From: Zea mays
Taxonomy: Eukaryota; Streptophyta; Magnoliopsida; Poales; Poaceae
Assembly: GCF_902167145.1 (NCBI RefSeq)
Contig: NC_050097.1
Location: 44,748,095-44,812,094 of the forward strand
DNA length: 64,000 bases
Direction: 5' to 3'
Below are positions 27,651 through 55,708 of the stretch, in pieces. The notes beneath the pieces are model-generated. The model saw only the letters and a list, made by a program, of their open reading frames with translations. It was not told the origin of the DNA and made no database searches. Made by a program: the position numbers and the translations under genes. Positions within the stretch are counted from its first letter, which is position 1. Each line of letters opens with the position of its first letter.

Positions 27651-27652
27651 GC

Positions 27653-27670
27653 TGGCGCGCCAGGTAGGGG
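27653..27670 (+). other. Primer binding site of element 2
   Basis: TGGCGCGCCAGGTAGGGGG follows the LTR by two bases. It is nearly identical to the site of element 1. The priming tRNA was not identified. Confidence 0.8.
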
Positions 27671-28131
27671 GTGTGTCGTTGATCCAAGCTAGCTCAATGG
27701 TTGTTACTTCCCAGTGCAAGATCGCTCTTCGCCCTGGATCCGTGTTCTGCTTTGGGACCATCTTGTACATAGCAGATGAGAAAGGAATTCTGCACCGCAT
27801 AGCAGATCCGCCGGGGAAGAAGTTTTCCTCAGAAATCCCTAGGAAAACCGGAACAAGACAATAGGCAACGCGGCCTCCTGTACTTCAGGCGAAGACTACT
27901 GCTTGCAAGCCGAGAATCGGGAATTTACCCGCCCAAAGGACTCCGCTGCCCACTTCGCCCACAAGGGAGTGGACGCGGATTACAAGAAAGAAATAAGCAA
28001 GCATTCTTAGAAAAAGGACAGAGCTCCACCGAGTTATCTTTCCGACACCTTCGCCCTCAAAGGAGGACGGAAAGGAACTCACCATCACAGCAACTCCTTT
28101 CTACCCCGACATCCTCTTCATCAGGGGGAGA
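27671..28131 (+). other. Untranslated leader of element 2
   Basis: The region lies between the PBS and the first plausible Gag codons. Only short ORFs without domains are present. Confidence 0.5.
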
Positions 28132-29666
28132 TTGGAATCGTCTCTCGTCTCCGACGATGAGCCAACCATGCCGGGGGAAGAACCTCCCCAGCGAGAGGCT
28201 CGACGACGAAGGAACAGACGCCGGAATATTCGACGACATCACGAAGCTAGGGAGCGGGACCCAGCGCAGCCCGTATCTCGAGATGATGTTTCGGAAGTGG
28301 GAGAGACCCCCGACGAGCGCGTACACCGAGAAAAGTGGAACTCTCGCCGACGTGATCGCCGACAAGCTCAGGACCGAGACCGAGAACAAGCCAAGTAGGG
28401 CACAAGGTTACGCCGAGAGAATCCCCTCTTCGCTCGAAACCTGAACCCTGACTTTGCTCATGCAATGAACACGCCGAGCGAAGTTGGAGGAGTGCTGGCT
28501 CAGATAGCTGATGGCCTCCCACGAACTCCGGACGCTGAAGGTTATCAGCAACTACTTACTCGGGCAGCTAACCACCTTCTGCCTATCACTCATCCCCCAA
28601 GCGGCTTACGACACGCCATCAACAGTCGGTGGGATGCGCGGAGCTCCATCAACGCTTCGCGCAACCGACGACATGAAAATAAGATAAGGCACCGGGAGGA
28701 ATATGACCAGGACCACGGCGTCCCGGCTCAAAGTCACGCCACTCGAGTTGAGTCAGCTGTAGCCTCAACTAGTGGCCCAATCCAGGGGCGGTCGAGACGA
28801 CACATCACCGACTCCCCTCCCCGGGATCGGCACCATGAACGCCGACAGGAAGACACATGTGGAGTCTCCACGCTTACTCCGCGTCTCCGGGCCATCCAGT
28901 GGCCCCCAAACTTCAAAGTCTCTAACGTCGACAAGTATGAGCCTAAGCAGGACCCGGGGGGCTGGTTGGCCATCTACACGACCGCCGCCCGGGCCGCCGG
29001 GGCAACAGAAGACGTGATGACAGCATATTTGCCCATCGTCCTTGGGCAAGATGCACTGCAGTGGCTACGACATTTTCCCTAACACTGCATCGACGATTGG
29101 AGTGACTTTAGTCGGCGTTTCATTGCCAACTTCTAGTCTCTCTCTGACAAGCCAGCGCAGCCATGGGACCTCAAATCCATCAGGCGCCAGGGCGATGAAA
29201 CACTTCGGTCATACCTCAAGAGGTTTCATACCATGAGAAATCGTATCCCCGAAGTCACCGAGGCAGCGGTGATTGAAGATTTCTACCGGGGATCCAATGA
29301 CTCGGCCTTTGTCCGAGCCATACTACAGAAAGCATCGACCACCTTTGAACAGTTGTTCAAGAAGTGGACCTCTACATCACCACTGACGAGCAGGCCCAGG
29401 ACCTCATCGGAGGAACGAAACCTGCACCACCGGTGCCACGACGCGACGCGAATCAGCAACCTGACATGCGCTGGGAGAAAAGGCCACGTGAAGAGGTACA
29501 CGCCACCGGACCACCCGTCGCTCGTGCCCGAGGGGCGCCCCGCGGAGGCGAGCGGACGCTGGATGACATCCTCGACGCCCAGTGCCTGTACCACAAGGAC
29601 ATGCGCCACACCCTACGGAATTGCAAGGACTTCAAGCACTCCGTCGGACATGGCCGATCGTTCTAG
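28132..29666 (+). pseudogene. Element 2 Gag, broken
   Basis: This is the capsid protein region of the Grande-like element. The frame opens at about 28132 with an Arg-rich N-terminus and is stopped by TAG at 28396-28398. It continues in the same frame through the Gag core (PGGWLAIYTTAARAAGA, DALQWLRHFP) to TAA 29080-29082 and TAG 29134-29136, then on through an ETLRSYLKRFHTMRNRIPEV block. A 1-base frameshift near 29355 moves the rest to another frame. There the knuckle CLYHKDMRHTLRNC (CX2HX4HX4C) appears, followed by TAG at 29664-29666. His replaces the second Cys of a normal CCHC knuckle, as in element 1. Confidence 0.8.
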
Positions 29667-29799
29667 CCTCTACCAGCTCCCCCACCACGAGGAGGGCCTG
29701 GCGAGCCCAGGCAGCCTCAGCAGCCAGAATGGCGAGGGGGTGGAGCATTCCCACGCGTTGACAGGGAGGTCAACGTCATCTTCGGAGGACACGGGTCGC

Positions 29800-30569
29800 A
29801 GGAGAACAGAAGGCAACAGAAGCTCAATGACCGGCAGGTCCTAGCAACAACCACCAGTGCCCCAACTCCTTATTGGTGGTCGCAGCATGCAATAACCTTC
29901 AGCCGAGCAGATCAGTGGCTCAACTTCGACCATCCTTGCAAGTACCCGCTCCTCGTTGATCCGGTGGTCTGTGAGAGCAGGGTAAAGAAAGTACTAGTGG
30001 ACGGGGGAAGTAGCATTAACGTTACCTTCCCCCGAATGCTTCTAGCCTTGGGGGTCGCACTCAAAGACCTCATTGAGTCATATGCTCCTTTCTTCGGCAT
30101 CGTGTCGACTGAAGGGGAGTACCCACTCGGACACATCTACATGCCCGTCACCTTCAGAACTCCGAAGAACTACAGAACCGAGTTCCTGAGGTTCGAGGTA
30201 GCACGTTTCGACTGCGGATACAATGCCATCATCGGCAGGCCGAGACTGGTGAAGTTCATGGCCATTCCGCACTACTCGTACATGATATTGAAGATGCCAG
30301 GACCTCAAGGAATCATCACCATGCGTGCTGACTTCCAAGGCACCGCGGAGTGCTTTCGGGGAGCCATCCAAGCGACCCTCACCGCCAGGCCCCTGATAGC
30401 TCCTCTCATGCAGGAGGACACCAAGCCAGAGGAAGGCCTCACAATACCCGCTAATGAAGCTCAAGCAGTGACCTCTATACGGCCGACTAAGGAGACTAAA
30501 AGGATCAACCTAGGATTTGCCGATGAGTGCAAGACTGCTATCATCAGTTCTAGCCTTGACGACAAATAG
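29800..30569 (+). pseudogene. Element 2 aspartic protease region
   Basis: The frame is open from the end of Gag to TAG at 30567-30569. It contains the retropepsin-type motif KVLVDGGSSINV (29988-30023), a later NAIIGRPRLVKFMAIPHY block, and the acidic C-terminal extension usual for this group. The enzyme would mature the Gag-Pol polyprotein. The closing TAG sits between protease and RT in the same frame, at the same place as the TAG in element 1. Confidence 0.8.
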
Positions 30570-32687
30570 GAATGCGCGCTCATCCGGTTCCTGCAAGATA
30601 ACCGAGACGTATTCGCATGGCAACCTGCAGATATGCTGGGAGTCCCGAGAGAACTGGCCGAGCACAAATTGAAGGTCTATCCTCAAGCTAGGCCGATTCG
30701 ACAGAAGCTACATCGTTTCACGTCTGACAAAAGAGAAGCTATTCGCACCGAGCTAGCCCGCTTAATGACTGCAGGGTTCATTAGGGAGGTGCCGCATCCC
30801 AAGTGGCTAGCAAATCCCGTTCTTGTACTAAAAAAGAATAAAGTGGATTGGCACATGTGCGTTGACTATACTGATCTCAACAAGCATTATCTGAAGGATC
30901 CCTTCGGGCTCCCTAGAATAGATTAGGTGGTTGATTCGACCACTGGTTGTTCTATGTTGTCCTTCCTAGACTGTTATTCTGGATACCATCAGATCAGCTT
31001 AGCAAAAGAAGATGAGGAGAAGACTGCTTTCATCACCCTATTTGGAGCTTTCTGCTATACCTCCATGTCGTTCGCCCTCAAGAACGTAGGAGCAACTTAC
31101 CAGAGAGCCATTCAGACATGCTTAGCCGACCACTGGGGCAAGTGAGTGGAAGCCTATGTCAATGATGTGGTGATCAAAATAGAAAACTCAGAAAAGTTCA
31201 TTGAAGATTTACAGCTGGTCTTCAACAGCTTGACACGCTACCGGTGAAAGCTCAACCCAGAAAAGTGTGATTTTGGAGTATCGACAGGAAAGTTACTCGG
31301 ATTCATTGTCAACCACCAAGGGATTGAAGTTAACTCGGAAAAAATCGAGGCCATCATGAGAATGGAAGCGCCACGATCACAGAAAAAGGTGTAGAGGCTT
31401 ACGGGATGCATGGCAGCCTTGAGTAGGTTCATATCAAGGCTAGGCAAGAAAGGCATGCCATTCTACAAATTGCTCAAAAAGGTGGACAAGTTTCAGTGGA
31501 CCACAGAGGCGCAGGAGGCTCTAGAGGCACTGAAAAAGTTCCTGACTACGCCACCAGTACTCAAGCCACCACGCCGAGTTGCGCCGAGTCAACCAGTAGA
31601 AGATCTGTTGCTATATATCTCCTGCACGACTCACGTGGTAAGCACCACGTTAGTAGTCGAGCGGGCAGAGGAAGAACATGCATACCCGGTGTAGCATTCG
31701 GTCTACTTCATTAGCGAAGTCCTTGGGCCCTCGAAGATGAGGTATCCTCAAGTTCAGAAGCTGCTATATGCGGTACTTCTAACCGCTCGCAAGCTCCGTC
31801 ACTACTTTGACGACCACAAAGTCATAGTAGTCATAGGATTTCCGATAGGGGACATTCTCCACAACAAAGAAGCTATTGGAAGGATAGCCAAGTGGGCGTG
31901 CGAGCTAGGAGCTCACGACATAGAGTTCCAACCTCGCACGGCAATAAAGACCCAAGTGCTGGTTGACTTCGTATCAGAGTGGACCGAGCACCAAGTCCCA
32001 GACAACCCAGAGATTACCGAAGTATGGAGAATGTACTTTGATGGCTCGTTGAAGCTGCAAGGAGCGGGTGCAGGGGTTCTCTTTATTGCTCCTGGGGGTG
32101 AACAACTCAAGTATGCACTCCAGCTACTATTTCCAACATCAAATAATGTAGCAGAGTATGAAGCACTGATCCACGGGCTAAGTATCGCCGTATCACTCGG
32201 CATCAAGAAACTGATGGTATATGGAGATTCGCTAGTGGTCATAAGCCAGATAAACAAAGACTTGGATTGCTTGACTGATTCCATGGACAAGTACTGTGCA
32301 GCCGTGCGAAAACTGGAGGACCAATTCGAAGGATTGGAGTTCCGTCATGTGGAAAGAGATCACAACGCAGCAGCAGACGCGTTGTCGAAGCTAGGATCCA
32401 GTCGGGCCCAGGCTCCACCTAGGATCTTCGTCCAAGAAATATCACAACCAAGCATCCTCTCAGATCAGGTGGAAGAGTGCAACACCTTGAGCCAACCAGA
32501 GTCGGACCCCAATGATTGGAGAGAACCTATCATCAGGTATATAAAAAATCAAGAAGAACCGGATGACAAGGTTGCAGCAGAACGCATTGCAAGGCAGTCG
32601 GCTCACTACACCATCATAGGGGATTTACTGTACAGAAGAGGTGCGGCAGGAGTCCTCATGAAATGCATTCACTCGGCCGTCGGGAAA
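30570..32687 (+). pseudogene. Element 2 reverse transcriptase and two RNase H domains, inactivated
   Basis: One frame runs from the protease TAG to TAA at 32688-32690, with further stops at 30924, 31143, 31245, 31392 and 31692. RT motifs are recognisable (VLVLKKNK, FLDCYSGYHQI, NVGATYQRAI). The catalytic tetrad reads YVND at 31155-31166, the first Asp codon having become AAT. The first RNase H (LLLYISCTTHVVSTTLV) lacks the usual catalytic Asp. The second keeps its acidic residues (MYFDGS at 32034-32048, AEYEALI, YGDSLVV, AADALSKL). The layout is the same as in element 1. This copy cannot make active RT. Confidence 0.9.
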
Positions 32688-32690
32688 TAA

Positions 32691-33754
32691 CTGTTAGATG
32701 AAATCCATGCCGGGCAGTGCGGAGTACATGCAGCATCCAAGACTCTGGCCGAGAAGGCTTTCAGATCTGGTTTCTATTGGCCAATAGCGAAGAGCGACGC
32801 TGCCGAGTTAGTCTAGAAGTGTGAGGCTTGTCAATTCTTATCAAAGCAACAACGCCTACCCACACAGTAGCTGCAGACCATTCCTGTAACATGGTTGTTT
32901 GCATGCTGGGGGCTGGACATGATTGGACCTTTCAAGAAAGCTCAGGGAGGCTATACTCATATACTAGTTGCCACTGACAAGTTCACAAAATGGATAGAGT
33001 ACAAACCAATCGCTTCTTTGACCTCATCCAAAGCAGTGGAATTCATACAAGACATAATATTCAGGTTTGGGATACCAAACAACATCATCACCGACCTAGG
33101 ATCCAACTTCACCAGCTCTGAATTCTTCTATTTTTGCGAGCAGCGGAGCATCCAGATTAAGTATGCATCAGTAGCACACCTAAGAGCCAATGGCCAGGTA
33201 AAAAGAGTCAACGGAATGATACTAGAAGCACTCAGGAAGAAAGTATTTGACAAAAGTGAAAAGCTTGCAGGAAAATGGATCAGGGAGCTGCCATACATGG
33301 TCTGGAGCCTGAGAACTCAACCCAGTCGAGCTCTGCATGGAAATACCCCGTTTTCATGGTTTATGGATCAGAGGCAGTGCTGCCCGCCGACCTAATCTTT
33401 GGGGTACCAAGTTTAACTTTCGAAAGCATAGCTGAAGCAGAAGCAACCAGGCTAGAAGATATTGATGTACTGGAAGAAGAACGATTAAACATAGTAATTT
33501 AGTAGGCTAGGTACCAGCAGACCTTGAGGCGCTACCATGATTAAGCTGTGCGGCACTGATCCTTTGCAGTGGGAGACTTGGTCCTTCACCGAATTCTAAC
33601 GGGGGAAGGGCGGCACAAGCTATCACCACTATGGGAGGGACCGTTCATCATATCAGAGGTCACTCGGCCAGGATCGTACCGGCTTACTCAGATGGACGAC
33701 ACAGAAGTGGGGAACTCATGGAACATAGAACACCTCAGAAAATTCTATCCTTAG
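32691..33754 (+). pseudogene. Element 2 integrase, inactivated
   Basis: It starts after TAA 32688-32690 with the HHCC zinc module (IHAGQCGVH ... KCEACQ), interrupted by TAG at 32814 and 32868. The core follows: D in GLDMIGPF, D in IITDLGSNF, but the catalytic Glu of the usual NGQVER motif is Lys here (AAA at 33201-33203). A frameshift at about 33338-33352 moves the rest (VYGSEAVLPADLIFG) to another frame, which has two TAG codons in a row at 33500-33505. The C-terminal block (GDLVLHRIL, LWEGPFIISEV, NIEHLRKFYP) ends at 33754. Confidence 0.88.
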
Positions 33755-33883
33755 CGAGGCCTCAAAATTCTTGAAGGAGCATTGTACTTTGTAATCTGAG
33801 GGCTTCATCATCAATAAAGTTTTCATTTTCCAAAGACATTCAGACTCTTGACTTACAGCTGATTGGGTTGGACTTGAAATCAG

Positions 33884-34440
33884 CACACTTACTTGACTAA
33901 GGGTGACCACTATACCCTGCCAACGGAGCAATTAGCTTAAGTCGGCGATGACATGCTCACGCTTACTTGACTAAGGGTGACCACTATACCCTGCTAACGG
34001 AGCAATCGGCTTAAGTCGGCGACGACTTAAGTCGATGCGACATGCTCACACTTACTTGACTAAGGGTGACCACTATACCCTGCTAACGGAGCAATCGGCT
34101 TAAGTCGGCGATGACTTAAGTCGGTGCGACATGCTCATGCTTACTTGACTAAGGGTGACCACTATACCCTGCTAACAGAGCAATCGGCTTAAGTCGGCGA
34201 TGACTTAAGTTAGTGTGACATGCTCACACTTACCTGACTTAGGGTGACCACTATACCCTACTAACGATCTAAGATGGTGCAATATACTCCGACTTACTCT
34301 ACTTAGGGTGACCACTACACTCTACCAGCAAGGCGATCAACTTAAGTCGGAAAACGCCTTTAAGCTAGCATGGTACACTTGTTTTCACGTTGTCTAGGGT
34401 GACCACTGTACCCTAACAACGAAATAATCAACTAAGATTA
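33884..34440. repeat. Minisatellite, ~88-bp units, between the convergent genes of element 2
   Basis: CTTGACTAAGGGTGACCACT and variants recur about seven times. Middle units are 88-89 bp (starts near 34041, 34130, 34218) and outer ones are shorter or diverged. Units also share TAACGGAGCAAT, CTTAAGTCGG and GCGACATGCTCA. The array begins 130 bp after the end of pol and stops about 170 bp before the end of the antisense gene. Confidence 0.9.
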
Positions 34441-34607
34441 AAAGCACTTCAGGAAAAAAGAACATCTTACTTGCTAGTGCCAAAGGCGCTTTCCGACACC
34501 CTGTTCACAGAATAATCGAGTTCTAACACAGCTGTCACATAGAATTCATATTACATCTATCTTCCAAAAGAGATGCTAACTCGATAAAAAAGGTGTTTTG
34601 CAGGACG

Positions 34608-37251
34608 TCACTGCGTCGAAACATCTTTGCAGATAGTGTCTTTCATAAATACAACGGAAGAAGAGGGACGGCTTGCAGCATCAGGCGCGGCCTTGACATC
34701 AGCAACAATATCGTCAGGCACCACGACGCTGGGTCTCCTCATCAGGATCCGTCCAATGCGAACGTCTTTATCCATAGCCCCGTCGCGCTGGGCCTTCAAT
34801 ATGACGCAATTGTCCTCTAGAGTTTTAACAGCCAGTTGAGCGGCCTCTAGCTCCTGCACGACAAGCTTCTTGGAAGCACGCAGATCCTTGATGGTGGAGT
34901 CTTTGGTCGACAGCAATTGCCCAAGTCGCATAACTTCATCTTGAGATACCTGCAGCTCATGGCGATGATGGTCTAGGTCAGACATGGTGAAGCGGTGGCT
35001 CCTCTCTAGGATGGTTAAGGAGTTACTGGTGTCACGGTACAGCCTGTCTAGATTGTCGCTAGAGGCAACAAGTGCTCGTTTCTCCTCCTACAAACAGAAA
35101 ACAAAAGTCAGCACCAAGGCAATAATAACAGAGCAGGGTCAGCCAGGGAAATTTACCTCGTGTGCCATCTTTTCAGAATCAAGCTGGGCATTCAAAGAAG
35201 AGTTCAGAGAGCGTGCACTGTCCAGAAAGGCAGAAGTCTAGGCTAAGTCAGTCTGACTCTGAGAATACTTCTTCTTAAGGTCAAAGCATCATTGAGCCAT
35301 ATCTGACAATGCAGCTGAAAGGGAATGTGTGATTAAAGATAAGTTGATCAATTAAAGCAGCCAAAGAAACTATAAGCTCACTAACTAGCATTTGACGCCT
35401 TTAAATCATCTATCTGTTTCTGGAGCAACAAAGGATTCCACTGCATCACAGATAGAGCTTATTCGGGAACAGTGGCGCCGCAGGACCTCAACTGGGCAGA
35501 TACTCCGTCAACAAAATCCTATGGTCATAGGTAGATGAGCAGAAGAAAGATAATTCGCTAGTACAAACAATATTGAACAAAAGACCAACTCACCTGGAGA
35601 TTAGAAAGGAACAGCGGAAGACCCAAGGTAGGAGGAGCTGGAACATGGCTTGACAAGGGAAGATCAGCAGGAACAACCTGGAGAACACTATCCGGGGTGA
35701 CCTCAGTCCCACTAGCAGACAGTAGGATCCTTGTGTCTGGCTCGCCGACCTCTAAGGCGACTTGTCCAGTTGAAGCCGTAGAAGCACGAGCTGCCGTCAC
35801 CCCATCAGACCGAATTGGGGATGACCCGATGTGGACGTCCATGGAAGTATTAGAAAGAGAGCATGCCTGAACATTCTCGGGGGCTGGGTTGCAGCTTGCA
35901 CTATCCACAAGGGCTGGATCACTACCAGCAACACCCTCGGGGGCTAGGTATCTGCCAGCGCCACCCTCGGGAGCTAGGTCTTCTGCAGCAGCCACTTCTA
36001 AAGCTGAAGGTCTCTCAGCCACCTCCATGCGAGTCGGATAACTCAAATCAGTGTTTCTGCATGAAAGACTGCCCTCCAAGGTCGACGATGCGCGAGACAC
36101 CACTCGGGTTACCTCTTGCCCGGCAGAATCAAGCAATGAAGGCCCACCATCTGGGACCTCTGAGCAGACGACTGGGGTATCAGCTTCAGGAGGCTCTGAT
36201 AGTATGTCTTCAGGAATGACCTCCTCCAGTGCTTGATCAAAATCTGATATTGAAAGCTCTTGAAGACTGATGAGTGCCAATAGAGCTGGAGAGAGAGTAT
36301 CGCTACCCCCCTCGCTACCTCTATAGTGCCAGTTGTTCTTGCGGGTTAGTGGGACTTCTTCTTCTTCCTCTTCATCCTCGTCAAACATGCCGCCAGTAGC
36401 CTGCGCATCATCACAACCTTTGGCGTCAACCTCAGGGATGGCGTCCGCCGGGACATCATCAGGAATCGGTACAGAAGGACCGACATCCTGATCCAAGCAT
36501 GACAGTCGCTGAAGTCGCCTTTTCTTATTTTCCCCTCGACAAGTGCAGTCGGGCGATTCACTCAGCGTGAATGCTTTGGGCGAGCACCTTCAGGTTTCTG
36601 AATCTCTGCCTCTTCACCAAATTCTTGCCCAGTCGTGATGGCCATCGTCTCGGTTCGGGTAGAGTCGGACGATTCCCTGGCCAACAGGCTAAGCACGACA
36701 TCCATCTTAGCATCATCAGTGCTAGCTGGTATCTCAAAGTGAGTCTGCCTCTCATCCTTAGAAAGGCTCCGAAGTGGAGCAATCAAGGCCTCAATGTCCT
36801 CAGGAGAGGGTCGCACTCTATGACCCGGGCTACCGTCACGAGCAGGAGGATTGGAGACAAAATCAGAGAATGGCCTATTTGGCGGTAGGTTCCACGTAGA
36901 ATATGCCACAGGAGCACCAGTATTTGAGACTCTACCCCTCAAAATCATGTCCAGTCGACTCAGCAAATCTTCGTTGGGAATTCTCCTGTTCGTAACCCAG
37001 GTGGAATCATTGACAGCGCTATACAAGACAGAGCGAATGTACGTCCAGACTGCAGCGGACAACCCCTGGGAGTCATCCGAGTCATCAGACGACGCTGGGG
37101 GAGAAGCGGGAGCCAGCGATCCCTCAGACCCGGAGGAAACTTCCTCCTAGTACTCCGAATCGCCAAAGTCCTCCGAGGGAGGACTTGGGGCGCGCTTCCG
37201 CTTGTCGCCAGCACGGCGAGGCAAGCCTTGACCTCTCTTGCCTTTGCCCAT
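34608..37251 (-). pseudogene. Antisense, intron-containing gene of element 2 (resembles Grande gene 23 in position)
   Basis: Four exons on the strand opposite gag-pol: 37251-35594, 35518-35386, 35314-35157 and 35087-34608. The three introns (35519-35593, 35386 to 35315 side ending at 35385, and 35088-35156) are 75, 71 and 69 bp with GT-AG ends; the first donor is CAG/GTGAGT. Joining by these sites keeps the phase at every junction, although stops occur within exons. The protein would start MGKGKRGQGLPRR at 37251, be Ser/Asp/Pro-rich with a basic start and an acidic EEDEEEEEE-type stretch, and end in a coiled-coil C-terminus (DLDHHRHELQVSQDEV ...). No known enzyme domain was recognised. Damage: TAG 37147-37149, TGA 36562-36564 with a frameshift just after, TAA 35459-35461, and two stops in exon 3. 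A TATA box lies 83 bp upstream. Confidence 0.8.
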
Positions 37252-37861
37252 GGTTGGTTGGAGAAGAAGAGAAAGGTAGAAGAAAGCAACAGATGATCGA
37301 AGGATGAGTGAAAAGAACAACGGTGCAAGCAGGCTATTTATAGAGGCCGGGGGTGACCGTCCACTTTCTACTACGCTCGCCGAGTAGTCACAAGTATTGA
37401 ATAAGCAATTCAAGCCACCTGAAAATGAGTCAGGCAGTAGGCGCCGCTTCGCGTAACACGGCACCGTTTGGACCAAGGTCAACTACTCGGGCAGTATGAT
37501 TACACCCCACGGTCACATCAAGTTACTACTCTAGGATAGTGTGCTAAATGCTCTGCGTACCAAGACACCCCTTGGTCACACCCATTGGGGGTGTAGCCAG
37601 GAATTTTCAAAAGATTTTCTAAAGAAGTCATATCCATACAGTATACACAATGAATGTACTACAACAAAAGGAGGAGATCGACAGAGATCAGAGGAAATCC
37701 AAATATAGCTATTGAACCACAAGTTTAATCAGCAGAGGCATTGAAGCACAGAGAGGGGTGATGTCTAGCCAAGAGCCATCTACCAAATGTCAAATCTATC
37801 ACCGATCAAATAAATTTCAGACCTAACAAGGCGTGGACAGATAATGTTGCTTGAATTCACA
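37252..37861 (-). other. Promoter-side spacer of the antisense gene of element 2
   Basis: It contains the TATA box at 37334-37343. Beyond that are AT-rich sequence and a CACCCATTGGGGGTGT phrase that recurs in the nearby tandem array. No gene is seen. Confidence 0.5.
37334..37343 (-). promoter_or_regulatory. TATA box of the element 2 antisense gene
   Basis: On the minus strand the sequence is CTATAAATAG, a perfect plant TATA consensus. It lies 83 bp above the ATG at 37251 and directs transcription into the antisense gene. Confidence 0.75.
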
Positions 37862-37987
37862 AGAGCATGAGATGAAGACAAAATGCTGATTTCTAAAGCA
37901 TAATATGAAGATCTTCGAGTGGATTATTTTCAAAAATCCACTCAAAGCCTCGAGGGCTACACCCATTGGGTGCACCTTTGATGCACC
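37862..37987. repeat. Second tandem array of element 2, left part
   Basis: Shares ATGCTGATTTCTAAAGCATA, GTGGATTATTTTCAAAAATC and ACACCCATTGGGTGCACCTT with 56397-56740. Element 4 inserted in it at GCACC (37983-37987). Confidence 0.85.
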
Positions 37988-38670
37988 TGTTGGTCCCTTG
38001 TTCTCAAATGCTATGAATCAAGAACAAGGCAATATAAGTGTTAATGGTTAAAGACCTTCGTCCTTCGAAGCGTTATCTCCCTTAGGATATAATGATCTCC
38101 AGACGAAGGTTATGAAGGACATACCTTCATTATCTCAATATGTAAGAGTATAAGCAGGAATATATGACATAAAAAGAACATGAATAATTGTATTGAACCA
38201 TTAGATTATCAATATTCTCATTAAATGATCATGAACAAACATTAATGATATTAAGTTACATTTATATCTTCGACTTGACAGAAGGTAAGAATCCAAGAAT
38301 GACGTGTGAGTGATTACAAGTCAACGTGAACAGTATGGTGTTACTGTTCATCTACTTATAGGCACAGGACGCAGCCTGGGTAAAATTACATCCATGTCCT
38401 TGACATTTACTATTGACTAAGGAATAATCTGTCGAGGACTAAGCGGTCTTTTCCCCTTTAGGTCGGTTTCATTCTCTATCACCGTCTTTGTGCTAAGCCA
38501 AAGCTTCTCCATCCACAGCTTCGGAACTGGTTCATCCTTCTTCCAGACCGTGTCTTTCATGCCGTGCACTCCTTTATCTCAAAGCCGAAGGTTCCTGTGA
38601 CAGTATATTATACTTGGAAAGCATGTTAGTCGTGTTTTTGAGGACCTTCGGAAGACGAAGGCCCCCAACA
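37988..38670 (-). repeat. 3' LTR of element 4
   Basis: It is 683 bp. It is followed on the minus-strand side by the polypurine tract GCGAGGGGCTAC (38671-38682). The promoter-type CTATAAGTAG, read on the minus strand, lies at about 38352-38361. Confidence 0.93.
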
Positions 38671-38944
38671 GTAGCCCCTCGCAGTATTAATTTGTTATGT
38701 CTAACAAATTCAGACTGCGACACGAACGATGGCCTTTAGTCGAAGGTCCGAAAAAACACCTTCCCTTCGCTAGAATAGCGAAAGTCAATGACAGATGGGG
38801 CCCACCAAGTTGCAATGCACTAGGCATATAAATAGAATCCCCCAGCGACAGCATTTGCTACGCCATTTTTGTTGCTTGTGTTATTTTCTCAAATTTTTAA
38901 TTCTCTTGTTGCCAACTTTCGTGATATACGCAAGTGCTTGTTGC
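38671..38944 (+). promoter_or_regulatory. Promoter and leader of the element 4 antisense gene
   Basis: The segment starts at the polypurine tract. It includes a perfect hairpin AATTTGTTA...TAACAAATT (about 38689-38711) and a TATA box TATAAATA at 38826-38833, 112 bp before the ATG. Transcription from it runs away from the 3' LTR, opposite to gag. Confidence 0.7.
38826..38833 (+). promoter_or_regulatory. TATA box of the element 4 antisense gene
   Basis: TATAAATA in the context GCATATAAATAGAA, 112 bp above the ATG at 38945. Confidence 0.75.
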
Positions 38945-39598
38945 ATGTCTAAAGAGAAGAAGGTGTCTGAGGAGAAGAAGGTTGTGGATCCTTTTCTTGC
39001 TGGGTTTTACGAATCTATGGCAAAAACAAATACAGAGAAGATCACAAAAGAAATGATGGCAGATTTGTCTGAAGATTCTGACGATAGTGATGACTATGAT
39101 GTGGAAAGTGGGGATGAAGATTCTGAAGACCGGCCCTGGCGGCCAAGCCATACCATCTTTGGAAAGTTGACCATTAAATAAAGTCAAATTGATGCCATGA
39201 AGGGAAGATACTTCCGTGACATGTCTATTGTGAGGGTTGGATGGGATAGCACCGCCCCTACTCCTGAAGAAAATGAGGTTGTTGTCTACATAAGCTTTAT
39301 GAAGGCGGGTCTTCGGTTCCCATTGAGCAAATTTTTGGTTGAAGTGTTGAAGATATTTCAGATATTTCTTCATCAAATTACTCCTGAAGCTATAATCAGA
39401 ATGGGGATATTTGTTTGGGCTGTGAGAAGCCAAGGGCTGGAACCGAGTGCAAAGTATTTTTGCAATATGCACGAACTATTGTACGAGACGAAGGCCACTG
39501 GCAAAGAGCAGTATCACAACAACTTCGGTTGTTACGGATTTATTGCTCGTCCCAATGCAAGCTACCCGGTTCCAACATTTCAGAAAAGGTGGCCCAGG

Positions 39599-42343
39599 TG
39601 TAACATCCCAAAAATTCCAACCCGAGGTTTGGAACCCTAATCTCCTGACCCCCCTTTATCTCTCCCTAATTTCTCCCTCATAGGACATCTCATCATATGC
39701 ATACACCTTGATAGTTAGAAGCACCTCACATAGATGATTATTTTTTAGCACCTAAGATTATTTAGCTAATTATTTGTTCAAAAGAAAAAGGGGATAAAAG
39801 AAATAGAAATAGAAAATAGAAAGGAAATAGAAAATAGAAAAGAAAAAGGAAAAAACTTCTCCCCCCGGTTGGGCCGTTTCTGGCCCAGCTCCCTCCCGCG
39901 CGCCCCCCTTCCCCCGGCCCATGCGGCCCAGCTCCCTCCCGCGCGCCGCGCCGCTCTCCCCCGCTGACCGGTCAGCCCCACCCGTCAGCCCGCACCCCCT
40001 CGCTCTCTCGTGATCTCTCTCTAGCGAGCGGGCCCCGCCCGTCAGCGCCTTCCTCGCGTCCGTGACCGGGGCTAGCGACGCGATCGCCACTGGCCACTGC
40101 CCGCTCCGTCGCCTCGCCATTATCGCGTTCACCAGCTCGGTTTGGCGCCTTGCGTCTGCCCGAGCCATCCCGTCGTCACCACTGTGCACCACCATCTCCG
40201 CTGTGGCGAGCTCGCCGGGGCACGCCCCCTTCTCCGCCCCGGGCGCCTATAAAAGGGCTGCCCCGAGCTCCCCAATTCCCCACCCCGGCCTCGACCATCT
40301 CCTCCCCCTTCCCCCGAGCTCAATTGAGCCAGCGCCACCGCCATCTCCATCTCCGGTGAGCCTCTCCTTCCCCTATACGTTGGGTTCTAGTTAAATTAGT
40401 TTAGCCCTTGAGCTCAACCACTTCACCCCAAGCACGGCACACCGTTTTCCCCTTGCCTATTGCACCGTTGGCCTCGCCGGCGACCTAACCGCCGCGAGCG
40501 CCCGCCACCGCGCCATGGACCGGCCACCCCAGGCACCCTCTGGCCAAATTGGCCCCTCCACCATAATCCCCTACCCCCGCCCGTTCCTCGCCACCACTCC
40601 CCCATCGCGGAACCGGAGCCCCGACGAAGAACCGCCGCGGGGCTTCACCATCGGTCGAGCCCCGGCCGGTTCGCCCCCCCGTCACCGCTCCACGCCGTTA
40701 CCCCTCCTCTCGCTGATGCGTGGGCCCGCACCCACGGTGTCCGCCGTGCCGTCGCCACTCCTCCGCGGGCCGGCTAGGCTGCCTGCCCCGCGCGCGCCCG
40801 CCTGCGCTCGGCTGGGCCGAAATTCCCCCCGGCCTAGCTAGCTGAGAATTCCTTTTTCTTTTTCCTTTTCCCATTTCTTTTTCCCATTTTCATATATGTA
40901 TTTATATGCTGATATTTTATGCACAAAAAATAGTTTAAATAAATTATAGGGTACAAAAATAATAATGTATAATAATTGGCACACCCCACCAAGTCACCAT
41001 GATTGATGTATTGTTCCTTATCTATGTTTGTTAGCGGAAGAGGGATCCGATCCTCCAGAATTTATAACTCCGGAAGAAGGGCAGGAACCCGACCCCTCCG
41101 AGATAAATCTTTTGTGCCAGGAAAGCTTCGATGAAGGCAAGTCCATCCTTCCCTCGATGCATAATTTACCTATTCTTTCTACCACTACCTAAGCCGGGAT
41201 TAAGGGATGAAATATTTGCATTGTGAGCAGAGAGATATCCCGCATTAACAAACATCTTTTGAGTACAAAATGTGGGATGGGAAAAGGGCAGTGGTTTTGA
41301 CTAAGCGATGTTTTCAAAAAGTGTGCGATGAAGGGTATTCACCCTCATCACCTTGTGAGTGGGATGATCAGGGACTCCCTGGTTTAGGGGAGGGCCTAAG
41401 GGGATGGCTCAACTGGTTTAGGTGTGAGCAGAAGGATTGTCCCCTCATATAAGGACTGGTTTGTCATCCTTCAGTACCTGTACTCATGATAAGTACAACC
41501 ACTCAAGACTGTATGGGCAGTCACTCAATCTGAACTCGTACGGTCCAACCCTAGGGTTATGAAGGCTGGGGAGCACTGGGAGGATAAGGAGGGGGGATGT
41601 TTTGTCCGGTTGGGCATGGCGGTGGCCTGACTCCTTTCGGTATAACCGTTAAGGTTAGGACTTGCGAGGAAAGAAAGAGATTCAGATTCGGATCTCATTG
41701 GCCATGAGATCACAGAGCCGGACTAGTGGGTAAAGTGTACCCCTCTACACAGAGTTCAAACCTATTCGAATAGTCCGTGTCCACTGGTATGGACGAGTCT
41801 GATGTGGTATGACAATTAGTGTTTTACAAAACTCCGTGAACAGGGAAATGTGTGTGAGTGTGTTTTTGGAAATGAAAATGATGCCACGGGAGCAGGAAGC
41901 TCAGTGGTGGTTGAGTAATGTGTTATTTCTATTTCCTTGGGAGAAACCCTAAAAGTACTGCCTTTCAATGAGAAAAAGAAGAGTGACTTCAACTCCACCA
42001 TATAAAGCATGTATGATATAGGTCCCTTTCTCCTTACGGGAGCAGGATGGGCTTGTGGAATACCTAGTGTATTCACCCAGATTTATTTATGTTTTTCAGC
42101 AGCTGAAGACTTCTTTTCTGCTATGCTTGATTGAGGGGCTGTGTCTGCACCCAGTTCTGCCTGTGGCTTGGGCTAGTTTATCTTCTACTGCGCTTTGTAT
42201 TTCTGGCTCTCTCGAGCCTGTACTCTGGTATTGTAATAACTTTTATTCGAACTCTATACTATTTGAAGTAAGGAATGTGGTTACTAGCCTCCTGGGACTA
42301 GTAATTGTATCACATTTGAGTCCCAAAGGATCAAGACGCTTCA
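39599..42343 (+). repeat. 5' LTR of element 3
   Basis: It is 2745 bp. The TATAAAAGG promoter box is at 40248-40256, after a very GC-rich stretch. GC-rich ORFs inside it are present in both LTRs and show no domain. Confidence 0.93.
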
Positions 42344-42345
42344 GG

Positions 42346-42358
42346 TGGTATCAGAGCC
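42346..42358 (+). other. Primer binding site of element 3
   Basis: TGGTATCAGAGCC follows the LTR by two bases. It is complementary to the 3' end of plant initiator tRNA-Met. Confidence 0.95.
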
Positions 42359-42484
42359 ATAGTACTGGCCGTAGATCGCAGCCTGGACCTTAAAAGTTTG
42401 CCTTAACAAGAAAACACCTCTTACCCCAAAAAAATCTCCTCTCCTTTCCCCTGATATTAACAGACCCTTCTTTTCTTCTACCAG

Positions 42485-43338
42485 ATGGAAGACTCTTGGG
42501 TCATTAGGACATCCTACTGCTCAGAGGAGGAAGGATTCTCTCATCTTTTGCGGAGTTGCGCGCTTCGCATGGGGATCCGCAAGAAGCCGGAATATGTCTG
42601 GAAAGAATACCGCGAAAACGAAATTGAGAAGTGCTCTATGGCAGTCTACCTGGGAGAAAGCGAAGCTACCCAAACCACCCTTCTTTCCAAGTCACCTTCA
42701 CTATACACCACTTCCCAGACACTTGCCAAAATGTTGCTCAAAAAGCCCTCTGACAATTATGCCAAAACTACAACAAGGAGGTTTTTGAAACCCCCCTTTG
42801 TTACTTCCCACCTAGCAACAAAAATACCCCCACCTAGAGGAAAAGACTTCAGGCCCTGTCAGGAAGAGATCCTACCGAAGATGACCCCACCATCGTCTAC
42901 ATGGTCGGATATCTCCGCGCTCTCGATAACCACTATGATGACCTTCCCTCCCACTGCACCCACCTAAACTCCCGGGTGGAAAGCTTAGAGCAGCAGGTCA
43001 AGGAACTTAAAAAGGAGAAGGCATCCCTTCAAGAGTGTCTCGATATGGCAGAAGGCGAAGAGGCCAACACTCGTGAAGCTTACCGAACCCTGAAGATGGA
43101 TTACGATAAGAAGCTGAAGAAGCTCGCCCCCACGAAGAAAATCCAAAAGAAGACCAAGAGCCAAGGATGCCAGACTGAGCGGAAGAAGAAAGCCCCTCCA
43201 GCTCCACCTCTCCCCAGGATAGAGAATTTGTCCGTTGTCGAGGATATGTCCCTAGCTAGCCTTGATGACCTTCTCAAGGAATTTGGTGACACCTTAGAAA
43301 AGGAGTTCGGAAGTACCTTAGAAAGTGCTCGCGTGTAG
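42485..43338 (+). pseudogene. Pre-gag ORF of element 3, broken, coiled-coil
   Basis: A separate coding region lies between the PBS and gag. The first part (42485 to about 42665) reads MEDSWVIRTSYCSEEEG and EYVWKEYRENEIEKCSMAVY. A frameshift at about 42665-42690 moves the rest to the frame that ends at 43338, with TGA near 42748 and TAG near 42834 on the way. That frame holds HYDDLPSHCTHLNSRVESL, a clear heptad coiled coil (about 42960-43130), a Lys-rich stretch and an acidic tail (LDDLLKEFGDTLEKEFG). It stops 112 bp before the gag ATG. No known domain was recognised. Gag and pol motifs are absent, so it is an additional protein of this element family. Confidence 0.6.
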
Positions 43339-43450
43339 TGCGACTTGTGGTAACTGTATGCTTGTATTGAACTGGTGTAATGAATAAAATAACTTGGTTG
43401 AAAAAGAAATTTGGCATATGCATAGTAGTAACTCTCTCTCCCCCTGGCAG

Positions 43451-44601
43451 ATGGCTTCGGATAAAACCACGCCTACCGCCTCCGGGATTGGAGCAGGGTT
43501 TCCCCTACGAGCTGAAGGAGAAGCCGGTGGAGAAGGGAGTGAGACCCACCTCCCTGCACCTCCGGAGCTGCCCTTAGATTTAGCCCAAGTTCTAGCCAAC
43601 CAAACCCGACTCATTGAGGTCCTCACTAGAAGTCTGGAGACTCAACGCCCGAATGGTGGAAGACCACAAGATAGGATGGGAGATTTCCTGAGGCTCAAGC
43701 CTCCCACATTCGCTGGATCCAGCAATCCCCTCGATGCTGATGACTGGCTGCGCACGATTAAAAGGAAGTTAGAAGCCATCGGATGCCCAGAGAATCACCG
43801 TGTTCAATTGGCTGCTCATCAACTTTCCGGGATGGCCCTAGCTTGGTGGGATACCTTCAATGCTGCCGTCAGAGATGCTACCTGGACAGAGTTTGAAACT
43901 GCTTTCCGAGAACACCATGTGCCCCAAGGGATCGTTCAGCTCAAGGAAGATGAATTTTGGGAACTAACTCAGGGAGGAAGATCTGTCAACGAGTACGTGC
44001 ACAAATTCACAGAATTAGCCCACTACGCGCTTGATGACATCAGCACAAAAGCCAAGAAGATGGCCGCTTCTTGAAAGGGCTCAGACCAGAACTCAAGACC
44101 ATCCTAGCCAGCCAAGATTTCCTTAGCTTCTCGCACCTCTCAAATAAAGCCATACAAGTGGAAAGGGAAAGGGAAGAAGAAAAAGGTCACCTCAAGAGGA
44201 AATTCCAAGTCCTCCGAGCTCAGCAGCAAGACCGGCACCAGAGAACTCGATCTTTTGGGTTTCCACCCAAGGGACCAAGCTTCAATAGACCAGCTAGACC
44301 CACTCTGTCACGTTTCAGTCAGCAGAGTTAGAGCTCCTTTCAGGCCCCCTCAGTTGCGAGTAACCAACCACCAGCAAATGCTTGTTGGCACTGTGGAGAC
44401 CCCAGTCACTTCAAGAACAACTGCCCCCAGTTGAAGGCATCAGGACCTACTTACTCCAACTCGGTGAATGGCCCCAAGAATACCTCAGCACCCGCCCCCA
44501 AGGCGCCCTCCTCTATCAGCCAGTAGAACAAGACCCAGTATCAAGGAAGGGCACGAGTAAACCACGTCGATGCTCAGGAGGCTCAGCAAGCTCCGGGAGT
44601 A
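43451..44601 (+). pseudogene. Element 3 Gag, broken
   Basis: The start MASDKTTPTASG at 43451 is the first Met before the Gag fold. Core motifs are present: FLRLKPPTFAGSSNPLDADD, LSGMALAWWDTF, FREHHVPQGI, VNEYVHKFTELAHYA. A 1-base frameshift at about 44055-44065 leads to an early TGA. The other frame continues with GLRPELKTILASQDF and TAG at 44329. A perfect CCHC knuckle CWHCGDPSHFKNNC lies at 44383-44424, and TAG follows at 44524. Downstream the frame runs directly into the protease. Confidence 0.88.
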
Positions 44602-46404
44602 GTGCTCGGTGAGTTCCTCGTTGAATTTACTCCCGCTACAGTACTTTTTGATTCAGGAGCATCCCATTCTTTTATAGCCACCAGTTTTGTGGAAAAGCAT
44701 GGCATTTGCTCTACCCACCTAGAAATCCCCTTGGTCACCCAAACCCCAGGGTCAGACCTTCTATGCCAGCTCAAATGCTCCCAGGTCAGAATTCTTTTAA
44801 GTGGGGTAGTGTTCTTAGTAGACTTAACTATCTTGCCATCCCAAGGAATTGATGTGATCTTAGGGATGGATTGGCTAACCAGGCACAAAGGCATCATAAG
44901 TTGCGCAAACAAGACAATCCTTCTCACAGACCACCAAGGAAAGTCAGTCTCTTATCAGGCTCAGCCACCCGCCAATGATCCAATGGTGTTTAATCTAGCA
45001 ACAGAAAGCATGTCAGTGATAGAAGAATTCATGGATGTATTTCCATAAGAGTTGCCAGGAATGCCGCCAGAAAGAGAAGTGGATTTCTACATAGACCTGA
45101 TCCCTAGTATGACACCCATCGCAAGGAGACCAAACCGCATGGCTCCTACCGAGTTAGCAGAATTAAAACTCCAGATCGCAGAGCTTCAACAAAAAGGGTA
45201 CATCCGTCCCAGCTCATCCCCTTGGGGAGCACCAGTCCTTTTCGTCACTAAAAAGGGTGGAAGTATGAGGATGTGTATTGATTACCGATCTTTAAATGAA
45301 GTTACAATCAAAAACAAGTATCCACTCCCTCGAATCGACGACCTCTTCGACCAGCTTCAAGGAGCCAAATGTTTCTCCAAGATAGACCTGAGGTCTAGTT
45401 ATCACCAACTGAGAATCAAGGAAGCGGATATTTAGAAGACGACATTTGTCACCCGGTACAGACAATATGAGTTCACAGTAATGCCTTTTGGACTGACGAA
45501 CGCACCCGCCTTTTTCATGAACCTCATGAATAAGGTATTAATGGAAGAACTGGATAAGTTTGTCGTAGTCTTCATTGACGACATCCTTATCTACTCCAAG
45601 AATCGCGAAGACCATGAGCGTCACCTCTGGGTCGTCCTCGGAAGACTCAGGGCACATTAACTCTATGCTAAGCTCAGCAAATGTGAATTCTGGTTAGAAA
45701 AGATAGCCTTCCTTGGGCATATCTTGACATCAGAAGGAATAGAAGTGGACGCATCCAAGGTGGAAGCAGTATCAAAATGGAAGCAGCCATCCAACGTCAG
45801 TTAAGTTCGAAGCTTTCTGGGAATGGTAGGATATTACCGTCGCTTTATCAAGGGATTCTCCAGCATAGCAAGATCTATGACCGAGCTCCTCAAGAAAGAC
45901 AATAAGTTTGTGTGGACCCCGAAGTGTGAGGAAAGTTTCCAGATCATAAAAGAAAAGCTCACGGCCATGCCCGTTTTGACACTACTGGATATACACCAGG
46001 ATTTTGTTGTCTTCTGTGATGCTTCAAGGCAAGGCTTAGGGTGTGTCCTGATGCAAAATGAGAAAGTTATTGCTTATGCATCACGCTTACTCAAGCCGCA
46101 TGAGCAGAATTATCCCACCCACAATTTGGAATTGGCAGCCATAGTGCATGCCCTGAAAATATGGAGGCACTACCTAATTGGGAACAAATGCCACATCTTC
46201 ACCGATCACAAGAGTCTAAAATATATCTTCACTCAGCCAGATCTCAACCTCCATCAGAGAAGATGGCTAGAACTGATCAAAGATTATGACCTTGAGATCC
46301 ATTATCACCTCGGAAAGGCCAACGTGGTAGCAGACGCCCTCAGCCGAAAACCTTTCGGGATGAAGGGGATCAACTTTTTAGAAGACTGGAAGAAGGAATC
46401 AGCT
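44602..46404 (+). pseudogene. Element 3 protease, RT and RNase H
   Basis: One continuous frame with stops TAA 45046, TAG 45433, TAA 45658, TAA 45802 and TAG 46405. Protease: VLFDSGASHSFI (~44644-44680) with the D-S-G active site, and [73 protein letters not shown], with catalytic FIDD at 45571-45582. RNase [16 protein letters not shown] (~46006), [27 protein letters not shown] and ADALSRKP, with all acidic residues present. This chromovirus has a single, normal RNase H, unlike the Tat-type elements here. The order and lengths are normal for the group. It would need the stops read through to be made. Confidence 0.92.
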
Positions 46405-46407
46405 TAG

Positions 46408-47841: not shown

Positions 47842-47908
47842 GGACTCTTTGAGGAGGGAATACCCTTACCTTTTCTCGAGCCCTGTCTGAATCTCAAGGG
47901 CAAGATTC

Positions 47909-47926
47909 CTTTAAGTGGGGTAGGTT
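47909..47926 (+). other. Polypurine tract of element 3
   Basis: TTTAAGTGGGGTAGGTT runs directly into the 3' LTR start TGTAACATCC. Confidence 0.8.
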
Positions 47927-53172: not shown

Positions 53173-53563
53173 ACTTGATTGTAATAATATTATGTAACAT
53201 TTGGTGTATGAAACAATTAATCAGACATGTAAATTGTTGTAATTTATTTCTTTGCGATGCATGAAATTTGCGCACATACCGTTTTTGAGCCTTCGGCGAA
53301 AAAACACCTTCCCTTCTTTTCATGCTTCGTAAAGAAAGAAGCCCCTTCTATGAAATTGTATTTCTCGAAGTTTGCTTCGTGCCTCAGCACATTTTTATTT
53401 AATAACAAAGTATTGCCGAAGATTTGCTTCGTATCCAATCTTTTTGTCGTTGATGCGATATGATGTATGATGTAATGTTATGCGTAATGATGTGATGATA
53501 TGATGCAAAATGATGGTGATGTCAAACACACACGCGCACGCGCCCACACTGGAACACTCAAGA
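53173..53563. other. 3' flank of the element 4 antisense gene
   Basis: AT-rich sequence with no gene. An ATGATG-rich stretch (53455-53520) and an (AC/GC)n stretch (53525-53550) lead into the minisatellite. Confidence 0.5.
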
Positions 53564-53997: not shown

Positions 53998-54227
53998 TTA
54001 AAAAAGAAGCATTCCACTCAACGGTATGAATATTGTTATTACATATCAGAATTCAGTCCTTCATGAAATGTTTTCCATATAAGAAAAAATAAGATTGCAA
54101 AAAAGATAAAGGTACACCAGATGTAGGATATTCTTTAGTAAATATGCTTGGATTTAGGCACAATGCTATTGACTGTGCGAGCTTCAGACTCTTCCCGAAA
54201 GTCGCGCTGCTGTTGGTGCCCTTCTGG

Positions 54228-55650: not shown

Positions 55651-55690
55651 GACTAAGGTTGGTGCTTGCCGAAGGTGGTCGAATGAGTTC

Positions 55691-55707
55691 ACCGGAGGTG
55701 GGTGCCA
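55691..55707 (-). other. Primer binding site of element 4
   Basis: On the minus strand TGGCACCCACCTCCGGT begins one base after the 5' LTR. It differs from the site shared by elements 1 and 2. Confidence 0.7.
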
Positions 55708-55708
55708 A

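Follow-up and report, generated by a model that had tools for sequence, protein, structure and literature searches.

Grande-like element and its reverse-strand gene parts

The window, which is the whole 64-kb stretch of DNA analyzed, contains on its forward strand a Grande-like Retand element (22203..57444) with further insertions nested inside it. Its LTR pair is flanked by the TSD CTGTT at 22198-22202 and 57445-57449, and its own sequence comes to about 12.0 kb when the nested insertions are subtracted by hand. The 5' LTR (22203..27650, forward strand) measures 618 bp in two pieces, 22203-22797 and 27628-27650; an insertion with the duplication GTGTG, at 22798-27622, separates them. The 3' LTR (56827..57444) is on the same strand, also 618 bp long, and 93.4% identical to the first over 594 bp (K2P 0.070). 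The forward strand further carries a stop-broken gag-pol region (28465..33392), with an RVT_3-type RNase H within 31737-32687 (PF13456, E 8.3e-20) and an integrase core at 32895-33392 (PF00665, E 2e-10), and after pol a tandem repeat array (33884..34357) of six units, spaced by 89 bp in three of five cases. A nested LTR element occupies 37988..56391 (flanks GCACC and GTACC), upstream of the reverse-strand genes described below, and holds a further element nested inside it.

A passage in PMC6317226 gives the rule that Retand elements (Tat, Ty3/gypsy) have a second, archaeal-type RNase H between the RNase H and the integrase. The domain order of the window pol, RT_RNaseH, RVT_3 (PF13456), integrase core, fits this rule, with PF13456 as the probable archaeal-type enzyme. 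Another Retand trait, a long region between pol and the 3' LTR with antisense coding capacity, is also present. The 618-bp LTRs, the 12.0 kb taken with the segment deleted from this copy, and the maize-sized genome of 2.18 Gb fit Grande, for which a published table row lists an LTR of 631 bp and an element of 13.77 kb (PMC3091746). The Grande-1 primers have their best window matches in the 3' LTR at 56867 and 57340, colinear and about 495 bp apart, with scores equal to the best of 500 shuffles or one point higher; the match of the forward primer in the 5' LTR is weak (9).

Opposite to gag-pol, all on the reverse strand, lie the parts of two genes, which we call A and B. The TATA box of gene A, CTATAAATAG (37343-37334), is as perfect as the preliminary description had it. 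This motif has two exact matches in the window versus 0.14 expected, and the box is exact in 21 of the 25 copies of the element that cover it, with a pairwise difference of 0.039. The first ATG beyond it is at 37251, in agreement with the distance of 83 bp given earlier. From there the front of gene A (37028..37251), beginning MGKGKRGQ..., runs for about 75 codons with a stop at 37149-37147, the remainder being deleted in the window copy. At the deletion junction (37027..37028) it is fused to what remains of exon 1 of gene B (35594..37027), from which the TRP28 front has been deleted. This exon shows a third-position excess, a stop at 36564-36562 and a frameshift near 36532-36520. It is followed by intron 1 (35593-35519, 75 nt, phase 0), exon 2 (35386..35518, 133 nt, stop at 35461-35459), intron 2 (35385-35315, 71 nt, phase 1), exon 3 (35157..35314, 158 nt, stops at 35291-35289 and 35240-35238), intron 3 (35156-35088, 69 nt, phase 0) and exon 4 (34608..35087), which encodes a coiled coil and ends in the stop codon. 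The three introns thus have the lengths, GT-AG ends and frame-preserving phases first proposed for them. They are 42-46% T, the exons 23-29%, and they contain in-frame stops. The window copy itself is broken by five in-frame stops and one frameshift, absent from the preliminary description.

A deletion fused two genes in the window copy

The TATA box and the three introns had been taken to belong to one gene, in which the box at 37343 drives a four-exon mRNA that is read from the ATG at 37251 and spliced three times. The TATA box, the ATG and the introns are indeed real and conserved, and the frames of genes A and B are joined in phase in the window copy. The sibling copies argue against a single gene. 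We fetched 39 of them from the same 2.18-Gb genome, the best-scoring of the 40 that were scored among 1383 candidates. An extra 1.2-2.1 kb is present at 37027/37028, inside the supposed exon 1, in 26 of the 39, and in the copies examined in detail this segment consists of the gene A stop, a spacer and the start of gene B, MAPKRKRQS. In the stretches fetched for the remaining 13, no upstream part was found. There are conserved blocks behind gene A and ahead of gene B, and the junction is absent from all 39 copies, with no match crossing it. The TATA box and its ATG therefore belong to gene A and the introns to gene B, and a single gene is improbable. In the window copy, loss of roughly 1.5 kb by deletion has joined the gene A front to the middle of gene B's first exon, and because of this fusion the two appear as one TATA-driven gene.

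Gene A in copy L037 encodes 164 amino acids in one exon and is acidic, ending ...KASGKAPLV; two scanned gene-A pieces gave no domain match. Gene B has the start MAPKRKRQS, TRP28 (Transposase_28) in a long first exon, three introns and a C-terminal coiled coil. The MAPKRKR start is present in 28 of the 39 copies. Antisense TRP28 (PF04195), also a Retand trait, was found in three scanned gene-B pieces of siblings (E 7.5e-25, 5.9e-26 and 9.3e-23) and is missing from the window copy, where that stretch is deleted. We consider it very likely that the element in the window is a decayed Grande-like Retand copy whose siblings carry two tandem antisense genes, gene B being spliced, and that the deletion fused the two.

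Splice sites and reading frames among the copies

The donor GT is invariant (difference 0.000) in all copies that cover it, 30/30 for intron 1, 28/28 for intron 2 and 27/27 for intron 3. The acceptor AG is present in 23/30, 27/28 and 26/27 copies, respectively, intron 1 having the weakest. Conservation of the splice dinucleotides among copies had been proposed as a check on the exon-intron structure, and these counts uphold it. As 19% of the dinucleotides in the intron interiors are also at a top frequency of at least 0.96, one invariant donor alone means little. That all three donors are invariant, versus a mean top frequency of 0.82, is harder to reconcile with the idea that unrelated open frames in degenerate repeat DNA are connected by GT and AG through chance alone. 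The broken state of the window copy, the frequency of GT and AG in any DNA and the conserved interior dinucleotides would suit such an accident. Against it also stand the coding signature in each exon and the annotated proteins that lack the introns, and with the copies compared, chance linkage is ruled out and has next to no probability.

For intron 2 a further acceptor lies in frame 12 nt on, at 35303, and is used in the gene model of the relative P0210. We rejected it as the main acceptor, its AG having a top frequency of 0.75 versus 0.96 at 35315; the P0210 model uses it because the first AG is lost at that locus. Between the two acceptors, 20 of 28 copies encode A-L-S-D.

Variation within codons was compared among the sibling copies. 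The mean pairwise difference at codon positions 1, 2 and 3 is 0.111, 0.106 and 0.184 with the gene A front included, versus 0.148 in the introns; a comparison of exons with introns across copies had been called for. The third position is the most variable in every coding segment: 0.117/0.071/0.206 in exon 2, 0.125/0.079/0.161 in exon 3 (counted from 35302), 0.116/0.097/0.190 in exon 4, 0.086/0.094/0.192 in the TRP28 front of gene B and 0.150/0.191/0.294 in gene A. We rejected C-to-T decay as the source of this excess, which persists at sites with an A/T majority (0.149 versus 0.065, permutation p 0.0002), a control for base composition; at C/G-majority sites it is 0.214 versus 0.142 (permutation p 0.0002). 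Three pseudo-phases in the upstream control range from 0.093 to 0.105, and contrasts limited to transversions are weaker (p 0.016-0.017). At 0.100, the difference in the upstream DNA (37400-37800) does not exceed that at codon positions 1 and 2. No one stretch can thus serve as the neutral standard, and the argument rests on the contrast within codons. By this pattern of substitutions both reading frames, A and B, carry a signature of purifying selection. None of the 22 copies covering exons 2-4 is free of stops. An opposite-strand, intron-bearing, protein-coding gene within a Grande-like element, as originally described, is thus borne out by the copy comparison and the codon-position signature.

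Proteins annotated in maize are without the introns at these three positions, to within 12 nt, and contig-derived proteins are also without them. These intron-less proteins are from sister families and are 58-72% identical to the window exons, and the shifts of up to 12 nt concern the intron 2 acceptor and, in most, the end of exon 3. P0121 and P0210 both lack intron 1 at the same place. The locus encoding P0210 has introns in the same places, with the intron 3 acceptor beyond the stretch read. For intron 3, ten of the listed proteins were parsed as lacking it. A search among long proteins holding exon 4 had a single match, P0241, an ORF that passes directly from exon 1 to exon 4. DNA relatives were sought in viral_contigs and genome_contigs, with none found.

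Many listed proteins read through instead, 102 of the 120 running from exon 4 into intron 3, and 50 alignments have 13-25 extra residues at junction 3. This insert is hydrophobic, and the introns could be translated, with the intron 3 residues forming a perhaps membrane-spanning insert in some isoforms. Most such proteins, however, are contig ORFs called regardless of introns, which therefore select copies in which the intron has no stop. The insert also looks like an intron: of the 34 proteins with both flanks parsed, 32 have V (as GTN) first and 33 have Q (as CAG) last, and its interior is 48% identical, whereas the exon parts on either side reach 83% and 90%. The introns vary more than codon positions 1 and 2, and those of the window have in-frame stops. 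Translation of the introns is thus very unlikely, and the transcript of the window family is probably spliced, judging from the DNA of its copies and the annotated relatives.

A sequence that is copied via its own RNA should lose its introns. A query joining exons 3 and 4 was contiguous without the intron in none of 76 genomic matches (40 scored of 367 candidates). A query joining exons 1 and 2 had 65 matches, one of which, at query 33-95, crosses the junction. We rejected it as an intron-less copy, reading it as a chance extension because exon 1 is about one intron length (74 nt) upstream of exon 2. These searches agree with the earlier proposal that introns on the opposite strand survive RNA copying. 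The introns probably persist because they are reversed in the copied gag-pol genomic RNA and so cannot be spliced from it. As a separate observation, a match at C4:119982503-119982877, in which 375 nt cover residues 1-126, may represent a copy that lacks intron 1.

Promoters, products and known antisense genes

Gene B would be transcribed from its own promoter and spliced by the host. Alternatively, it could be expressed from the gene A promoter, either in a bicistronic RNA or in one from which alternative splicing omits gene A. A clear TATA box is present at gene A only; none was found for gene B. Nevertheless, behind the gene A stop lie a palindrome that is conserved and GAGTTTGTGTAACCCC (in the letters of L037), features that would suit a 3' end, and a conserved block with TTATAC, CCCACTTATACTCG in L037, is found about 115 nt upstream of the ATG of gene B. 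We regard a shared promoter as rather unlikely.

The preliminary description had coding-like sequence continuing through the junctions into a coiled coil, and this holds. Exons 2-4 have a heptad signal in the window (p 0.005, versus 0.69 for an exon-1 control) that 0 of 2000 shuffles reach in two relatives. The predicted structure of the spliced relative P0121 contains one helix of 195 residues (95-289) across junctions 2 and 3. That of the exon-1 region was poor (pLDDT 51) and was set aside, and a search of solved structures found no match. Of ten relatives scanned for bZIP, only P0129 had a match, to bZIP_1 with an E of 0.076, which fails its cut-off. With its basic K-R-K-R start and coiled coil, the gene B protein may be nuclear and dimeric. 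It may bind nucleic acid via TRP28 and help or regulate the element from the nucleus, by analogy with the antisense accessory proteins of some retroviruses.

HTLV-1 HBZ is one such protein, described in part of PMC7412551 as the product of an antisense gene with a spliced mRNA and a coiled-coil dimerization region. Gene B is similarly an antisense retroelement gene with a coiled coil and, presumably, splicing. HBZ differs in being from an animal retrovirus and in having an LTR promoter and a bZIP domain, and we do not claim shared ancestry.

Earlier publications describe both an antisense Grande gene that has its own promoter and antisense TRP28 ORFs of Retand elements. The former, gene23 (Gomez-Orte et al. 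2013), is described in passages of PMC7264820 and PMC11963269 as having its own promoter and a nuclear product. Like gene A it is in a maize element, opposite to gag-pol and between pol and the 3' LTR, and the position and the TATA box fit; those two passages mention neither introns nor a second antisense gene. Gene A, a small acidic ORF with its own TATA box, may be gene23. The product of gene23 is reportedly 23 kDa, for which the 164 amino acids of gene A in L037 are short.

The TRP28 ORFs of the Retand lineage resemble gene B in being antisense, between pol and the 3' LTR, and in having PF04195, and antisense Smc (coiled-coil) domains are noted in some clusters (Vicient 2025, PMC11963269). 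That survey counts ORFs of at least 600 bp, and the word 'intron' is absent from its main text. In gene B the TRP28 and coiled-coil frames are instead exons of one gene, which suggests that surveys with a minimum ORF length count the parts of a single gene as several ORFs. We found no report of introns in the Retand antisense TRP28 ORFs or the Grande antisense gene in the literature covered, which reports on the Grande gene through later papers. The introns of Ogre and EVADE are called notable exceptions among plant LTR elements in a passage of a December 2025 review (PMC12786077), and that of Ogre is placed in the sense RNA, between gag-prot and the remainder of pol, in PMC6317226. Whereas the Ogre and EVADE introns are in sense RNA, those of gene B are on the opposite strand and in an accessory gene.

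The family thus probably has two separately promoted antisense genes, one of them a four-exon gene that unites TRP28 and coiled-coil frames hitherto seen as separate ORFs and has kept its introns because they are on the uncopied strand. Three introns retained together with their reading frames are therefore indirect but strong evidence that the antisense accessory protein was of importance to the element. Capture of a processed sense message would have brought in a gene without introns, so gene B probably entered the element in reverse orientation or from DNA. The model of gene B predicts exact splice junctions.

Antisense genes in the window copy and its siblings

The window copy has a TATA box, CTATAAATAG, at 37343-37334 on the minus strand and no ATG between it and the one at 37251, as the preliminary description had stated. 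The 64 kb contain this exact sequence twice, with 0.14 expected; the other occurrence, at 56073, is within the LTR of a nested element. The three introns described (35593-35519, 35385-35315 and 35156-35088, minus strand) are also present, with GT-AG ends, lengths of 75, 71 and 69 nt and consistent phases. Their T content is 42-46%, versus 23-29% in the exons. Absent from that description were five in-frame stops and a frameshift that break this copy.

We searched the genome (2.18 Gb, 655 contigs), in which the window is C2:44748095-44812094, with 36560-37060 as query. The best 40 of 1383 candidates were scored and 39 copies besides the window were fetched; these best-scoring copies are decayed and unevenly covered, and each count has its own n. 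Their homology to the window breaks off near 37027 and resumes further on. In 26 of the 39 both sides were found, 1.2-2.1 kb apart; for the other 13 the fetched stretch yielded no upstream side. None of the 39 has a match crossing junction 37027/37028. Where it was inspected, this extra DNA contains the last part of an acidic ORF, then a spacer, then a second ORF whose start, MAPKRKRQS, was found in 28 of 39 copies. In L037, a sibling genomic copy, the acidic ORF from the ATG at 37251 codes for 164 aa ending in KASGKAPLV. The ORF starting MAPKRKRQS is continuous with exon 1 of the gene that has the introns.

The simplest reading of these alignments is two adjacent transcription units, gene A with the TATA box and the acidic ORF, and gene B with the MAPKRKRQS start and exons 1-4. 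A TRP28 domain (PF04195) was detected in all three pieces of the gene B ORF scanned (E 7.5e-25, 5.9e-26 and 9.3e-23) and in neither of the two gene A pieces scanned. Differences by codon position are 0.086/0.094/0.192 at the front of gene B, the coding signature also seen in the exons (below), and 0.150/0.191/0.294 in gene A, where it is looser. Downstream of the gene A stop two conserved blocks (L037 letters), the palindrome GACTCATAATGAGTC and after it GAGTTTGTGTAACCCC, lie between about 360 and 323 nt ahead of MAPKRKR along the gene; every base is kept in at least 90% of covering copies, and together they are perhaps the 3' end of gene A. Another conserved block, CCCACTTATACTCG (L037 letters), is about 115 nt ahead of the gene B ATG. 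In the window copy a deletion has fused some 75 codons of gene A in frame with the mid-part of exon 1 of gene B. The single gene first described, from the TATA box through three introns, is this fusion.

The antisense location, the TRP28 domain and, in Grande, a promoter of its own are already published. A survey of Retand elements, in whose main text the word 'intron' is absent, tallied the TRP28 and Smc domains that antisense ORFs encode (PMC11963269). Among plant LTR elements with introns, a December 2025 review singles out Ogre and EVADE as the notable cases (PMC12786077). Our literature search, whose reach did not extend to the 2013 Grande paper, found no reports of introns in Grande or Retand antisense genes.

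Conservation of introns and reading frames

Splice dinucleotides are conserved among the copies, with donor GT in 30/30, 28/28 and 27/27 for introns 1, 2 and 3. Acceptor AG is kept in 27/28 for intron 2 and 26/27 for intron 3, and is weaker in intron 1 (23/30). For dinucleotides in intron interiors the top frequency averages 0.82, with 19% of them reaching 0.96. Intron lengths are 70-76, 70-72 and 68-69 nt. The TATA box is exact in 21 of 25 copies and the ATG is kept in 25 of 26.

Mean pairwise difference at codon positions 1, 2 and 3 is 0.111, 0.106 and 0.184 (gene A front included), the third being the most variable in all six coding segments. It is 0.148 in introns, 0.000 at donors, 0.039 in the TATA box, 0.103 in the 5' UTR and 0.135 downstream; upstream DNA (37400-37800), at 0.100, is as conserved as codon positions 1 and 2, so that the case for coding depends on comparing positions within codons. 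Plant repeats decay through C-to-T change, and we therefore redid the test per base with gene A left out. The third-position excess is found at A/T-majority sites (0.149 vs 0.065) and at C/G-majority sites (0.214 vs 0.142), each with a permutation p of 0.0002. Three pseudo-phases in the upstream DNA gave 0.093-0.105, and the contrast with transversions only has p 0.016-0.017. These contrasts, base control included, show that the four exons have all evolved as protein-coding sequence, read in the frames given by splicing. None of the 22 copies covering exons 2-4 is free of stops, so the coding signal is historical.

A query with exons 3 and 4 joined gave 76 matches (best 40 of 367 candidates scored), none contiguous. 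With exons 1 and 2 joined there were 65 (best 40 of 114 candidates scored), and the one row across the junction, a candidate intron-less copy, was read as chance. At C4:119982503-119982877, residues 1-126 of the related protein P0210 are matched in 375 nt, a possible copy without intron 1. This candidate apart, the copies examined keep their introns, which supports the earlier reasoning that introns on the opposite strand persist. Retention would follow if only RNA of the gag-pol sense is reverse-transcribed.

Related proteins and the predicted product

A protein query from 36565-37146 gave 557 relatives (120 listed), and one from the end of exon 1 plus exons 2-4, with X at stops, gave 207 (120 listed). 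Among the 120 listed for the second query, 10 were parsed without intron 3 and 102 as ORFs running on from exon 4 into intron 3 sequence; 8 were unparsed, including P0125, by eye also without intron 3. Relatives without it include the annotated maize proteins P0121, P0126, P0128, P0148 and P0210, and B6SUY1 (P0129), presumably a cDNA-derived entry. Their identity to the window exons is 58-72%, and most have the end of exon 3 shifted 12 nt upstream. P0121 and P0210 align gaplessly over junction 1 as well. The genomic locus encoding P0210 (C1:173942599 on) has introns at the same places, in a stretch covering introns 1 and 2 and the intron 3 donor. Intron-less protein models of sister copies are already in the maize annotation, as uncharacterised proteins. 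In the sister-family proteins P0121, P0125, P0126, P0128 and P0129, exon 3 has an extra 18-residue coiled-coil repeat compared to the window family.

Of the 102 ORFs that extend into intron 3, 34 were parsable on both exon sides, most of them from one subfamily. The intron translation opens with V in 32 and closes with Q in 33, as expected from GTN and CAG. For the 34, identity is 48% in the intron 3 interior, 83% in the exon 3 tail and 90% in the exon 4 head.

The coiled coil proposed earlier is borne out by heptad periodicity, which reaches significance in exons 2-4 of the window copy (p 0.005) and in two relatives, but not in exon 1. The C-terminal part of P0121 is modelled as one helix (residues 95-289, mostly >90 pLDDT), predicted to span junction 2 (near residue 110) and junction 3 (near residue 173). 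The basic start MAPKRKR looks like a nuclear signal. DNA binding is predicted for TRP28 (Vicient 2025, PMC11963269), and a nuclear product is reported for the antisense gene of Grande (PMC7264820). We infer that gene B encoded a nuclear dimeric accessory protein. HBZ of HTLV-1 is the nearest in kind, with no kinship (PMC7412551).

The host element

The element has 618-bp LTRs, identified as a matching pair, at 22203-22797 plus 27628-27650 (5') and 56827-57444 (3'), and CTGTT flanks it on either side. The LTRs differ by K2P 0.070, which at a rate of 1.3e-8 gives an age of about 2.7 million years. A domain scan of the window placed an RVT_3-type RNase H upstream of the integrase core on the plus strand. 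This order fits the Retand clade, in which that arrangement is described (PMC6317226). Once nested DNA is subtracted the element is about 12.0 kb; Grande is 13.77 kb with a 631-bp LTR (PMC3091746). Published Grande-1 primers have a stated product of 500 bp (PMC6022724). Their best window matches, at 56867 and 57340, are colinear and about 495 bp apart, each alone scoring no more than equal to the best of 500 shuffles or a single point higher; in the 5' LTR the forward primer matches only weakly. We call the element Grande-like.

About 4.8 kb of inserted DNA (22798-27622) interrupts the 5' LTR; it begins TGTAACACCC, ends GGTGTGACA, has the duplication GTGTG and looks like a single long LTR-type unit. 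A nested LTR element at 37988-56391 has 690-bp matching repeats (94.9% identical) and flanks GCACC/GTACC; inside it is a further element with 2.75-kb direct repeats (39599-42343 and 47927-50683). The direct repeats at 3115-4790 and 13477-15152 (1.68 kb, 98.7% identical, with short tandem repeats within) are probably a younger LTR element. A tandem array of six units that share a conserved AGGGTGACCACTATACCCT-like core lies at 33884-34357, between pol and the antisense gene.
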